Assembly (NCBI GenBank): GCA_016926255.1
Contig: JAFGOY010000010.1
Location: 1-64,000, forward strand
Source of the DNA: Anaerolineae bacterium
GTDB lineage: Bacteria; Chloroflexota; Anaerolineae; Aggregatilineales; UBA3940
Length of the DNA stretch: 64,000 nucleotides
Direction: 5' to 3'
Position 1 is the first letter of the stretch. Each line of letters opens with the position of its first letter. The position numbers were made by a program, and so were the translations under genes. The notes beneath the pieces are model-generated. The model saw nothing but the letters and a program-made list of their open reading frames with translations, made no database searches and was not told where the DNA came from. Shown one piece after another: positions 17,563 to 27,856 of this stretch.

Positions 17563-17596
17563 GCGGCAGATGGTCTCGTCTGCCGCCCGTTTCGTT
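17563..17596 (+). terminator. Terminator after the SDR gene
   Basis: A perfect 8-bp stem, GCGGCAGA (17563-17570) with TCTGCCGC (17579-17586), is followed by CCGTTTCGTTT. It lies between convergent genes. Confidence 0.65.
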
Positions 17597-19494
17597 TATC
17601 CGATCTTCCACTCCCGCCACCAGCCCTCGGCTGGGATTGCCTGCCGCGTATCGTCATTGAGCGATCTTGACTCAAAATCGCGGCGCAGTTTCTCATGTGC
17701 GTAGAGCAGGTTGACCAGCGCGGTCATCCGGCGGCGCTCTTCGGGGAAGGTCAGGTTGTGGGTGTCGAAGACGGCCTTGAGCATCGTCAGGCGCTCGTCG
17801 AGTCCGAAGCTGTAATCGGGCGGGCCGACGACGTGAATGCTCAGCAGCGAGGGCAGCGGTGAGGCCATCGCCGCCGCAAACAACTCGATGTCGTAAAACG
17901 CCGCGCCGCCGTCGAAATAGAGTTCACCGTCGATATTCGGCGGGGTGACGTAAAACGGCTGGGCCATTCCACCGACAATCGCCTCGACGATCGGGCAGTT
18001 GATCGGGCTAAGCCGTCGCCCGGCGAAGTCTATTTGCAGATCGTCGGCCATGCCAAAGAAATCGGCGAATCCATCCGATCCCCGCGCTCCGACCGCGTAA
18101 AAAGGCAGCTTGATGTCCTCGAAGGTGAGCGTCATCCCATCGGCACAGCCCGTCCAGCGTTCCAGGTAGGCGGCGATCTGCTCCTTGAGCGGGTCCATGT
18201 TGGCGACCGCGCGGGCGATCCTGCGCGGGGCGAGGTTCAGCCGGTAGACATTCGACGGATCAAGCTGGTCGAAGAATTCTTCGAGATGCGTCAGTGCGTC
18301 GAGCGCCTCCGGCCTGTAGAGATCGGGATGGCGGCGCGCGCCCAGCACCACACCGTGAAACAATCCGTTCAGCACCCCCGCCGAGCAGCCGAAAATCCGC
18401 TCGACGTTCCCGTTCTGCGCGTCGACCAATCGGGTCATGATCAGCCCGGCGATGATCCCGGAGAACCCACCCGCGCCGTAGATCAGCGTGGTCGGCTTCG
18501 AGAAATCGCAGCCTTCAAGCTGCGGCTCGCCTAACTCGCGGAAGGTCGCCATCAGGTCGAGTTTGTTGGCGATGCTCTGCCGCATGTTGGTCCCCGCCTC
18601 GGTCGAGCCGATGTAGGGCAGGCGGATGTGCCAGCACTGCGGGGCGTGATCGGCAGATGGTTGATCGGCGGTTAGGGCGGTCAGTGAGCGGTATCGAGCC
18701 AGCAGATCGTTGTAATACGCGGCGAGGATCGCCTGGTTGCGTTCGTGCCAGCGGTGCATGATGAAGGGCTGCGAGAGCGCGTTTGGCTTCCAGTCGGGGA
18801 TCGGCGTATATGGCTCCGATTTGACGATGGGGCGAGGGTCGGCGGCTTCCATGTCGGCGACCATCGCCGAGATGTCGGCGAAGACCGGGCGGCCATCCTT
18901 GTAGTAGTGGCCGTTGACCGGAACCGCATCGTAGGCCAGGACGGTGCTCACTGCGGCGATGCAGGCATCGAGCAGCGGGGCATTTTCGATCCGGGTGCGG
19001 CAGTTGTGATAGTCGGCCTGGAGTGTATCATCCGGCGGGCCGAAGAAGACCGGGCGGGCGTCCTTGTCGCACACACACAGGTAAACCGGCACGGCCAGAT
19101 CGTCGAAGGTGAAGCTCGACAGATCATCGAGGCCGGTATATTCGCGGAGACGATCAGACAGCCAGCGCCGGAGCGGGTCGAGTTGATAGGCCCCGTACTT
19201 CAAGGCCCACAGATTGAATCTCCGCAGCTTTTTGACGGTCGTCTGCCGGAAATAAGCGGCGAAGGTTTCGAGGGCGTAGTTAGCGCTTTCGGAGAATCGA
19301 TCCGGGTTAGTACGGGCCGAGATCATGATCGCGTGGGCAAGGGCCGCCAGCGCCCCGGAAGAATTCCCGAAGATGCGGCCTATCGAAGCGCCCTCCGCTT
19401 CGAGGCGGCGGGCCAGATCGAAATCGCTTTGAAGCTGCGGCAGGTGATTCAGCTTTGCCGACTGGTAGATAACGGTCGTTGGCTGGTTATTCAT
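17596..19494 (-). CDS. Tandem double patatin-like phospholipase
   Basis: 632 residues made of two homologous patatin domains. Domain 1 (about 1-215) has nucleophile elbow GNSSG (Ser45) and catalytic Asp200 in YYKDGR, but its first strand lacks the Gly-rich oxyanion loop. Domain 2 (about 330-560) has the oxyanion-like YGAGGFSGI, GCSAG (Ser371) and the DGG motif (Asp528). Matching stretches FDDLAVPVY and FEDIKLPFY confirm the repeat. There is no signal peptide, so it should act at the inner face of the membrane as a lipid acyl hydrolase. It starts three bases after the stop of the upstream MFS transporter gene. Confidence 0.85.
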   Translation of the reverse strand: MNNQPTTVIYQSAKLNHLPQLQSDFDLARRLEAEGASIGRIFGNSSGALAALAHAIMISARTNPDRFSESANYALETFAAYFRQTTVKKLRRFNLWALKYGAYQLDPLRRWLSDRLREYTGLDDLSSFTFDDLAVPVYLCVCDKDARPVFFGPPDDTLQADYHNCRTRIENAPLLDACIAAVSTVLAYDAVPVNGHYYKDGRPVFADISAMVADMEAADPRPIVKSEPYTPIPDWKPNALSQPFIMHRWHERNQAILAAYYNDLLARYRSLTALTADQPSADHAPQCWHIRLPYIGSTEAGTNMRQSIANKLDLMATFRELGEPQLEGCDFSKPTTLIYGAGGFSGIIAGLIMTRLVDAQNGNVERIFGCSAGVLNGLFHGVVLGARRHPDLYRPEALDALTHLEEFFDQLDPSNVYRLNLAPRRIARAVANMDPLKEQIAAYLERWTGCADGMTLTFEDIKLPFYAVGARGSDGFADFFGMADDLQIDFAGRRLSPINCPIVEAIVGGMAQPFYVTPPNIDGELYFDGGAAFYDIELFAAAMASPLPSLLSIHVVGPPDYSFGLDERLTMLKAVFDTHNLTFPEERRRMTALVNLLYAHEKLRRDFESRSLNDDTRQAIPAEGWWREWKIG

Positions 19495-19497
19495 CGG

Positions 19498-20874
19498 TCA
19501 GTCGGTGGCGGCTGCGGCGGCTTCGATGGCGGCCAGTTGTTCGCGCACTTTGGCGTGGCTGGCACGCGTGATCGGGTACCAGAATAGCAGGGGCAGGGCG
19601 ATCAAAAAGACGATCAGCGGAATTGGCCCCATGAACAAGCGAATGCCAAACAGCGCTTTGGTAGACTGCACCGGGCTGCCTTCGACATAGTTGAAGAGCT
19701 TGAGCACCCACCCCGCGATGGCGATCCCCAGCGATTGGGTTAGCTTCCAGGTGAAGCCCCATACGCCGAAGAACATCCCGCCGCGATGCTCGCCGGTTTC
19801 GAGGCGGTCATATTCGATCACGTCGGGCACCATCGCCCAGGGAAAGACCCAGTTGGTCGAGAAACCCAGCCCGGCCACGAAAGCGATGACGTATATCCAG
19901 GGCGTTTTGCCCTGCGGGAGCAGGAACGTCGAGGCGACGGTCAGCCCACCGATCAGCAGGCCGATGGCGTAAGCCGGGCCTTTGTTGATCCGGTCGGAGA
20001 GCATCTTCCACGGAAACAGGAAGATGCCGATGCTAATCAACAGGATGCCCATCACCAGTGAAATTTCCAGGTCTTCAAGCCCGATCTGGTAGGTGAGGAA
20101 ATAGGCCAGCAGGGTTTGGACGAGCGTAAAGGAAACGTTGGCAATCAGGTAGGCGACGATCAGCCGGACGAAGGGTTTATTCTTCAGCGTGGTGAGGAAC
20201 GCCTTGATGGGCGGCGCTTCGGATTTTTCGTCGTTGGCCGCAATGGGGACTTTCTTCAGCCCGGCGGCGCAGCCCCACAGCGAGAACAGGTTGATCAACC
20301 CGTAGATCACGCCGACCATTCCCCAGCCGGTGCGTGCGGAGGCGAACAGCCCGACGATGATCGGCGTAACTGCTGCGCCGATGAGATAGGAGGGCACGCC
20401 GAGGATCATACGGACGGAGGTCAGGCTCGATCGCTCTTCGTAATCGTCGGTGAGTTCGGAACTCAGCGCGTAGTAGGGCACGGCGGTGATGGTCAGCGCG
20501 GTGTCGAACAGGATGAACGTCACGGTGATCCAGATGAACGTCCAGAAGTCGCTCAAGCCCGGCGGGACGAACCAGAGCAGCGCAATACTGATCGCCAGCG
20601 GGATCGCCCCGAAGATCATGAAGACGCGGCGCTTTCCGTATCGCTTCGAGATGGTGCGGTCGGCGATCCATCCGAACAGCGGATCGTTGACGGCGTCCCA
20701 TATTTTGGCGACGGCCAGTGCGCTGCCAGCAATCGCCGGATCGACCAGTGCGCCGTCAGTGTAGAAGATGAGCAGAAAGAAGCTGATGGCGGAGACGACC
20801 ATCGCGTTGCCGAAATCGCCCAGCCCGTAGATGAGCTTGGTCGAAGTTTTCAGTGAGGTGCTGTTTTTGGTCAT
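19498..20874 (-). CDS. MelB/MFSD2-type (GPH) cation symporter
   Basis: 458 residues with twelve predicted helices. LIYGLGDFGNAM and KIWDAVNDPLFGWIADRT are family signatures. Asp60 and Asp64 match the Na+/H+-site pair of MelB and the vertebrate lysolipid transporter MFSD2A. AAGSD-type sugar residues cannot be judged by eye. It has a good SD (AAGGG) and is followed after three bases by the double patatin gene, which makes a lipid or lysolipid substrate as plausible as a sugar. Confidence 0.88.
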   Translation of the reverse strand: MTKNSTSLKTSTKLIYGLGDFGNAMVVSAISFFLLIFYTDGALVDPAIAGSALAVAKIWDAVNDPLFGWIADRTISKRYGKRRVFMIFGAIPLAISIALLWFVPPGLSDFWTFIWITVTFILFDTALTITAVPYYALSSELTDDYEERSSLTSVRMILGVPSYLIGAAVTPIIVGLFASARTGWGMVGVIYGLINLFSLWGCAAGLKKVPIAANDEKSEAPPIKAFLTTLKNKPFVRLIVAYLIANVSFTLVQTLLAYFLTYQIGLEDLEISLVMGILLISIGIFLFPWKMLSDRINKGPAYAIGLLIGGLTVASTFLLPQGKTPWIYVIAFVAGLGFSTNWVFPWAMVPDVIEYDRLETGEHRGGMFFGVWGFTWKLTQSLGIAIAGWVLKLFNYVEGSPVQSTKALFGIRLFMGPIPLIVFLIALPLLFWYPITRASHAKVREQLAAIEAAAAATD

Positions 20875-26521: not shown

Positions 26522-27856
26522 ATGGCAACCTTAACCGTCGATCCCAAAGCCACACGCCGCGAGCGGTGGGCCTGGTATCTTTACGATTTTGGCAACTCGG
26601 CCTATGCTGCGGTTGTCTTATTGGCCGTTTATTCAGCTTATTATAAAGGTGCGGTGGTTGGCGGCGCGGAAGGATCGCGGCTGTGGGGTCTCGGCACCGG
26701 GATCGCAATGCTGCTGGTTGCCGTCACTGCCCCCATACTGGGCACGATTGCCGATTACTCCGGCGCGAAGAAGCGGGTGCTGGCTTTCTATACGGCGCTG
26801 TCGGTTCTGTTCTGCGCGATGCTGTTCTTCGTGCAGGAAGGGAACTGGTTCATCGGGCTGCTGTTCTTTGTGATTGCCGAAACCGGCTACCGCAGTGCTC
26901 AGGTCTTTTACAACGCACTGCTGCCGGAGATCGCCTCCCCGGAAGAAATGCCGCGCGTATCGGGTAACGGGTGGGCGGTTGGATCGGTGGGCGGCGTGTT
27001 GTGCCTGATCCTCGTGCTGATTCCGATTGTGCTGACGGATAGCAACCCGCTGACGATCCGGCTGTCGCTGGTTTTTACGGCGGTCTATTTTGCCGTGTCG
27101 GCGCTGCCAACCTTTCTGTGGATCAAGGAGCGCGGGGCAGAGAAACCGCTTCCGGAGGGCGAGACTTATCTGTCGCTGGCTTTCAAGCGGCTGGGTGAGA
27201 CGTTCCGGGCGGTCAAGCAGTACCGTGAGTTCCTCAAGTTCATGATCTCCTATCTGATCTATAACGACGGAATCCTGATGGTGATGGATTTCGCCGGAAT
27301 CCTTGGGTTCATCCTGTTTGGAATGGGACAGCAGGAACTGATCATCTTCATGATCATCGTGCAGGTGACCAGCGTGGTCGGCGCGTACCTGTTTGGGCTG
27401 TACGCCGGTGATTTTGGCGGGAGGCAGTCGCTGATCGTCGCGCTTCTGTTGATGGTCGTCCCGGTTGTGTGGCTGTATTTCACCCACAGCAAGCTGGCGT
27501 TCTATTTCATCGGCGGGTTGGCCGGATTTGCGCTGACCGGGGTGCAGTCGGTGAGCCGGACGATGGTCGGATTGTTCAGCCCGGAGGGGCGAAACGCCGA
27601 GTTTTACGGTTTCTTTGCGATGGCGGGGCGAACCTCGTCGTTCATCGGCCCGGTGATCTTTGGGCAGTTAGTCGTCTGGGCAACCCGGCACTATGAAGGG
27701 CTGGGCCTCGAAGCGCTGCTCGCCGAGCAGATGGGGCACCGCGTGGCGTTGTTCTCGATCATAGCCTTCCTGGTGATCGGCTTTGTGCTGCTGCTGACGG
27801 TCAACGAGAAGAAGGCCCGCGCAGTGGTGGGTAATGGGGAAGCGGTGGCGGAGTAG
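26522..27856 (+). CDS. MFS transporter, UMF1/Atg22-like family
   Basis: 444 residues with about twelve helices. RRERWAWYLYDFGNSAYAAVV is the UMF1-family signature, and GTIADYSGAKKRVLAF is the family's loop 2-3. Family members are poorly characterised in bacteria; yeast Atg22 exports amino acids from the vacuole. AAGGAG lies upstream of ATG 26522. The convergent amidohydrolase gene is separated by a terminator. Confidence 0.85.
   Translation: MATLTVDPKATRRERWAWYLYDFGNSAYAAVVLLAVYSAYYKGAVVGGAEGSRLWGLGTGIAMLLVAVTAPILGTIADYSGAKKRVLAFYTALSVLFCAMLFFVQEGNWFIGLLFFVIAETGYRSAQVFYNALLPEIASPEEMPRVSGNGWAVGSVGGVLCLILVLIPIVLTDSNPLTIRLSLVFTAVYFAVSALPTFLWIKERGAEKPLPEGETYLSLAFKRLGETFRAVKQYREFLKFMISYLIYNDGILMVMDFAGILGFILFGMGQQELIIFMIIVQVTSVVGAYLFGLYAGDFGGRQSLIVALLLMVVPVVWLYFTHSKLAFYFIGGLAGFALTGVQSVSRTMVGLFSPEGRNAEFYGFFAMAGRTSSFIGPVIFGQLVVWATRHYEGLGLEALLAEQMGHRVALFSIIAFLVIGFVLLLTVNEKKARAVVGNGEAVAE

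Follow-up and report, generated by a model that had tools for sequence, protein, structure and literature searches.

Carriers of the glycoside-pentoside-hexuronide (GPH, or MFS_2) family have substrates that range from sugars to lysolipids, according to PMC10281868. On the sugar side of the family are MelB and the GPH symporters UidB, YicJ, YagG and YihO; on the lysolipid side is MFSD2A, the sodium-dependent lysophosphatidylcholine symporter 1. A lysophospholipid flippase of the major facilitator superfamily (MFS) is also found in the LplT-Aas system of Escherichia coli, where, as described in PMC11416262, the flippase is coupled to an inner-face acyl-chain enzyme. A third point of reference is provided by the patatin-like phospholipases (PF01734), with their Gly-rich loop, GXSXG motif and DGG motif. 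Here, we describe a gene pair in which a GPH-family transporter is followed by a protein with two patatin domains. The pair lies in a 64,000-nucleotide stretch of the genome of an Anaerolineae bacterium (contig JAFGOY010000010.1), which we refer to as the window. We suggest, with about an even chance of being right, that the pair is a two-gene inner-membrane module in which cation-driven uptake of an acylated amphiphile is coupled to deacylation at the inner face.

The proposed module would share with LplT-Aas the logic of a flippase joined to an acyl-chain enzyme at the inner face of the membrane. The components differ, since Aas is an acyltransferase/acyl-ACP synthetase, whereas the window pair consists of a GPH carrier and a hydrolase-family protein. 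LplT belongs to an MFS family other than GPH. Our searches of the open-licence literature turned up neither a tandem patatin nor a patatin-GPH pair, and the parts of the literature on MFSD2A that we consulted mention no patatin partner. The parts come from known families, and their recurrent combination appears to be new within the flippase-plus-acyl-enzyme kind. How MFS_2 carriers came to switch between sugars and lysolipids is a question on which this pair bears.

A rare fusion that recurs beside a GPH transporter

The transporter gene and the double patatin gene are separated by exactly 3 bases (19495–19497), i.e., the bases between the stop codon of the first and the start codon of the second, just as an earlier note on this DNA had described. 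Double patatins are rare. Among 61 relatives, three had one; the counts were 2 among 396 genomes of the class and 2 among 400 of the phylum. The order that includes genome G330 yielded 7 in 201 genomes and then 11 in 400, and the families of G330, G860 and G941 yielded 4/5, 2/27 and 2/38, respectively. The genome sets overlap, with 14 fusion-bearing genomes in all; the earlier note had called the layout unusual. A search of genome contigs returned a single relative, in an Anaerolineae bacterium record with the genes of G008, and plasmid records contained none at E 0.01.

We inspected the available flanks in all 14 fusion genomes. A co-directional GPH transporter gene adjoins the double patatin gene in 11 of them, answering a question that the earlier note had left to be checked, namely whether the two genes stay together. 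The order is transporter then patatin in two genomes, the window and G008, and patatin then transporter in the other nine (G330, G870, G858, G941, G860, G1025, G1155, G1157 and G1058). Spacing is generally tight: where the patatin comes first, the genes are ~7 bases apart in six genomes, overlap by 4 bases in G941, and are separated by ~30 bases in G1025 and ~150 bases in G860; the gap in G008 is ~79 bases, depending on the choice of start codon. The genes surrounding the pair vary; they include a glutaminyl-tRNA-synthetase-like gene, or dihydroorotate-dehydrogenase-like and methylenetetrahydrofolate-reductase-like genes (named by eye). The two genes are therefore the conserved unit. What we observed directly is the pair and how often it recurs, the families to which its members belong, and the residues described below.

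Could the two genes simply be neighbors with no shared function? Three of the 14 fusions, in G006, G912 and G882, have no adjoining transporter on contigs of 6.6, 10 and 13 kb, and a patatin is absent beside many of the transporter's orthologues. However, because the pairing recurs in 11 of the 14 fusion genomes, it is more than chance would produce. The expected frequency of such an adjacency is ~0.2% per genome, by rough arithmetic rather than by a count, with a few GPH genes among some thousands of genes; moreover, the pair recurs in the reversed order and with different transporter lineages. We consider mere adjacency very improbable.

Repeated assembly of the pair

The history of the pair was examined with two transporter trees, the first with 59 rows, including seven patatin-linked carriers, and the second with 61 rows, including 11. 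Before the first tree, matches to the seed profile with E above 1e-20 and rows of <340 or ≥520 residues were left out; before the second, 15 more rows were left out as near-duplicate or distant. On the 61-row tree, the 11 patatin-linked carriers require three label changes, and a single clade containing all of them is rejected by the approximately unbiased (AU) test (p 1.2e-7). A single clade of the nine carriers from the order of G330, i.e., without the window type, is also rejected (AU p 0.02), as is a single clade of the seven patatin-linked carriers on the 59-row tree (p 0.0003). Since the paired transporters do not form one clade, the pair formed at least twice, and this argues for a functional link between its members. 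The 14-row patatin tree has unpaired rows beside paired rows in each of its parts; for example, the paired G860 and the unpaired G912 are sisters. The simplest reading of the trees is that the pair formed repeatedly or that its carrier was exchanged, in one case with a reversal of gene order.

The transporter is closer in sequence to MFSD2A than to MelB

The window transporter is a clear member of the GPH family, matching PF13347 (MFS_2) with 306.1 bits (cut-off 27) and TIGR00792 (GPH) with 268.5 bits (cut-off 231.35). All five NCBIfam families listed for it are GPH-type models, and none is LplT; the MelB equivalog NF007749 scores 160.2 against a cut-off of 456. Among solved structures, MFSD2A chains are its best matches: a phmmer search of the PDB gave 140–146 bits for MFSD2A and 91–96 bits for MelB. 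The partner transporter of G330, from another order, has a larger difference (173–183 versus 89–94 bits). Two carriers from sugar loci behave in the opposite manner. YicJ scores 188–192 bits against MelB and 49–64 against MFSD2A, and a Vibrio protein that adjoins xylose isomerase and GH43 genes scores 128–132 and 64–84 bits, respectively. On the 61-row tree, 10 of 11 sugar-locus controls fall in a 14-row clade (100/99, starred), with only a Thermus protein outside it. The window transporter also lies outside this clade and, judged by its scores and position, is not a classic sugar symporter. The earlier note had regarded a firm grouping with sugar symporters, together with a pairing that is not conserved, as the outcome that would speak against a lipid-related module; neither is seen here, since the pair recurs and its carrier falls outside the sugar clade.

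The residues of the cation site have to be read with more caution. The site is fully matched in the window transporter, with Asp60/Asn63/Asp64/Thr128/Lys377 in place of MelB Asp55/Asn58/Asp59/Thr121/Lys377. MFSD2A shares the Asp pair, the Thr and the Lys but has Thr at the third position, where the window transporter and MelB both have Asn. The earlier note had drawn attention to the Asp pair as common to MelB and MFSD2A. The pair is indeed present and aligns with Asp55/Asp59 of MelB, but it is no sign of lipid transport: almost all family members, the sugar carriers among them, have this cation site, and the pair, though real, is therefore not diagnostic. We accordingly rejected it as a mark of lipid transport; Asp59 is invariant across all 59 rows, and 43 of the 59 have Asp55, with sugar carriers among them. 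PMC8329300 likewise describes the cation positions as conserved in nearly all family members, and the galactoside residues as kept only in MelB orthologues.

Two of these galactoside residues, Asp19 and Asp124, are replaced by Ala24 and Ala131 in the window transporter, and the Arg corresponding to MelB R149 is present. Loss of both Asp residues was considered as a mark of a non-sugar substrate and rejected, as neither residue is present in any of the other five GPH proteins of E. coli.

Two patatin domains, one with a canonical active site

The 632-residue partner protein matches PF01734 in two stretches (38.9 bits; cut-off 27.7), although neither half reaches this cut-off when scored singly (24.7 bits for domain 1 and 21.9 for domain 2). 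An alignment of one half with the other (hhalign E 3e-29 over 263 columns) shows them to be homologous, upholding the description of two patatin domains in one chain. Each half is also homologous to ordinary patatins encoded in this genome (hhalign E 1e-7 for domain 2 and 4e-5 for domain 1), although the protein is distant from them. Possession of two diverged domains in one chain, one of them without the loop, sets the protein apart from other patatin-like phospholipases.

Domain 2 has the Gly-rich loop, the GXSXG nucleophile and the DGG motif (Table 1). In domain 1, the Gly-rich loop is replaced by the stretch VIYQSAKLNHLPQ, and most rows have a Q-x-x-K-L stretch at this location. By eye, the G860 protein fits the same picture, as does the G330 protein in its first part. 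With a complete canonical site in domain 2 and no loop in domain 1, domain 2 is the likely enzyme. Domain 1 is an altered copy, perhaps with a binding or regulatory role.

In the double patatin of G006 (L043:3849–5930), which has no adjoining transporter, the Ser and Asp of domain 1 are both gone and domain 2 is intact. Perhaps the domain 1 dyad and the transporter partner are lost together.

Inspection by eye shows no signal peptide in the double patatin, so the protein probably works in the cytosol, where its target would be the inner leaflet. This also fits a scheme of export or remodelling, in which the patatin strips acyl chains from endogenous lipids and the carrier then disposes of the resulting lysolipid or head group, as membrane upkeep and not as uptake. 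A member of the same family, E. coli YihP, is annotated as a putative exporter. On the other hand, the window transporter keeps the cation-site residues of a Na+ symporter, which fit uptake down the Na+ gradient, and we regard export as unlikely.

We also considered a role in defence of the CapV type, as in cyclic-oligonucleotide-based antiphage signalling systems (CBASS), and rejected it: NF041079 scores 12.7 against a cut-off of 200, and no PADLOC family was matched.

Neighboring genes and possible substrates

The loci of related carriers provide information on possible substrates. In a sister clade within the transporter family, four of five loci inspected (L111, L112, L113 and L115, in G960, G1005, G967 and G902) have an adjoining gene for a GNAT-family acyltransferase of ~375 residues. 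The two genes overlap, carrier first, in L111, L112 and L113; the acyltransferase comes first in L115. The GPH carrier and GNAT acyltransferase thus constitute a second recurrent pair of a GPH carrier with an enzyme.

Together, the recurrent pairing, its assembly at least twice, the higher scores against MFSD2A than MelB, the separate sugar clade, the intact domain 2 and the acyltransferase-adjoining sister clade suggest uptake of an acylated amphiphile followed by its deacylation. The steps would be as follows. First, an MFSD2A-like GPH symporter, powered by Na+ or another cation at the conserved site, would deliver the amphiphile to the inner leaflet; this could be a lysophospholipid, a lyso-glycolipid or another acyl-glycoside. 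Second, the cytosolic tandem patatin would cut off the acyl chain using Ser371 and Asp528 of domain 2. Third, domain 1, as a duplicated and altered copy, would more likely serve in lipid binding and positioning, or in regulation, than as an ordinary lipase. In this scheme, we infer the acyl substrate, the direction of transport, the coupling and the role of domain 1. A lysolipid is a possible substrate of the transporter.

A different explanation, doubtful but deserving serious consideration, is the scavenging of glycolipids or acyl-glycosides. Here, a sugar-type carrier would take up a hydrophilic glycoside, a glycosylglycerol or an O-acylated sugar, the patatin would deacylate the cargo or its parent glycolipid, and the sugar would be catabolised. 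The very name behind TIGR00792, glycoside-pentoside-hexuronide, is in keeping with this. Plant patatin is a known galactolipase. The pairs of G330 (L042:3883–7833) and G941 (L061:2–3651), which come from different families, are adjoined by a fucose-isomerase-type gene and an FGGY kinase gene, with a class II aldolase gene in addition in G941 and a DUF4432 gene in L042. The L042 isomerase is weakly similar to the sulfoquinovose isomerase SftI (72.6 bits; cut-off 700). A GH31 gene lies ~3 kb from the G008 pair. Among relatives of the partner clade, L040 adjoins two such genes, one mannosylglycerate-hydrolase-like and the other a GH13 gene resembling sucrose phosphorylase, and L010 also adjoins a glycoside hydrolase gene. 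Given L040 and the two pairs beside sugar isomerase and kinase genes, the earlier note's view that the pairing would make no sense for a sugar transporter was too strong. An MFS carrier for gentiobiosyl-diacylglycerol is named in PMC10083588, meaning that glycolipid-type substrates are within reach of the fold. Set against scavenging, most pairs, namely those in the window, G870, G1025, G1155, G1157 and G1058, have no adjoining sugar genes (named by eye unless assigned by Pfam), and the window transporter is outside the classic sugar clade.

Several of these observations, and some others, weigh against import and deacylation of an acylated amphiphile. In addition to the two pairs beside sugar-catabolic genes and the three unpaired fusions, these are as follows: (i) MFSD2A joins the G330-type partners (93/95, unstarred) on a long branch; (ii) the window transporter is outside the 34-row clade (99/93) that includes MFSD2A; (iii) MFSD2A is distant, with at most 34% identity to any tree row, and the row that reaches this value is L040, from the glycoside-hydrolase locus; (iv) G330-type carrier orthologues without a patatin (L100, L101, L104, L105 and L107) adjoin genes for a luciferase-like oxidoreductase/monooxygenase and/or an M19 dipeptidase (L100 assigned by Pfam, the others by eye); and (v) AlphaFold models from a two-row input have a predicted local distance difference test (pLDDT) score of 33.8 and 36.7, too low for an assessment of the transporter pocket. 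In the tree, the window carrier is intermediate between the sugar clade and the side of MFSD2A, and the G330 type is on the latter side. Residues of the MelB sugar pocket are listed in PMC12851581.

This part of the family thus has carriers in acyl-related, sugar-related and other settings, and resemblance to MFSD2A is not enough to assign a substrate. A glycolipid or acyl-glycoside stays among the candidates because the Asp pair is family-wide, the window carrier is on an in-between branch, L040 is in a glycoside-hydrolase locus, and two pairs are beside sugar-catabolic genes.

The luciferase-like/M19 neighborhood of the G330-type orthologues is recurrent but makes no obvious sense. Separately, MFS_2-type carriers were seen on two plasmids: one from Deinococcus aetherius (L133:2968–7326), in a run with a haloalkane dehalogenase gene and a flavin monooxygenase-like gene, and one from Croceicoccus marinus (L144:2902–6734), in a run with acyl-CoA dehydrogenase genes. 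These runs hint at hydrophobic substrates elsewhere in the MFS_2 family.

Returning to import and deacylation, its more specific form is tentative, being possible rather than probable: a bacterial importer of the MFSD2A type, coupled to Na+ and carrying lysolipids or acyl-glycosides, together with a tandem patatin whose first domain is a lipid-binding or regulatory pseudo-domain, would make up a dedicated import-and-deacylate module that arose at least twice and that maybe belongs to the bacterial branch nearest the animal lysolipid carrier. If the substrate is indeed a lysolipid, the pair would be a second bacterial design for lysolipid import beside LplT-Aas, built from different parts, and would make simple homologues available for a transporter of medical importance. 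In any case, the pair, in which a carrier from bacteria with kinship to the MFSD2A side is repeatedly joined to a lipid hydrolase, is a small testable system for how the switch between sugars and lysolipids arose.

Features of the window locus

Table 1. Positions of the gene pair and of its domains and key residues in the window
Feature	Position	Strand	Basis or conservation
GPH/MFS_2-family cation symporter, 458 residues, first gene of pair	19498..20874	-	ORF (open reading frame) list, Pfam, NCBIfam, phmmer
Transporter Asp60 (MelB Asp55), cation site	20695..20697	-	Alignment
Transporter Asn63 and Asp64 (MelB Asn58 and Asp59), cation site	20683..20688	-	Alignment
Transporter Lys377 (MelB Lys377)	19744..19746	-	Alignment
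Tandem (double) patatin-like protein, 632 residues, second gene of pair	17596..19494	-	ORF list, Pfam, hhalign
Patatin domain 1, residues ~1-326	18517..19494	-	Boundary approximate
Domain 1 stretch replacing Gly-rich loop, residues 8-20	19435..19473	-	No Gly-rich loop in 12/12 rows reaching here
Domain 1 Ser45 in GNSSG	19360..19362	-	Ser in 11/12 rows; Ala in G006
Domain 1 Asp200 in KDGRP	18895..18897	-	Asp in 12/13 rows; Ser in G006
Patatin domain 2, residues ~327-632	17599..18516	-	Boundary approximate
Domain 2 Gly-rich (oxyanion) loop YGAGGFSGI, residues 339-347	18454..18480	-	YGAGG in 13/13 rows
Domain 2 nucleophile Ser371 in GCSAG	18382..18384	-	Ser in 13/13 rows
Domain 2 catalytic Asp528 in DGG	17911..17913	-	Asp in 13/13 rows

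A scan of the minus strand identified no promoter directly upstream of 20874, and the number of matches found was near that expected by chance. The flanks of the window pair are ordinary: upstream is a RarA/MgsA-type ATPase gene, encoded on the strand of the pair, and downstream is a short-chain dehydrogenase gene in convergent orientation. A second MFS-like membrane protein of 444 residues (by eye) is encoded on the plus strand at 26522–27856, in a position unrelated to the pair.

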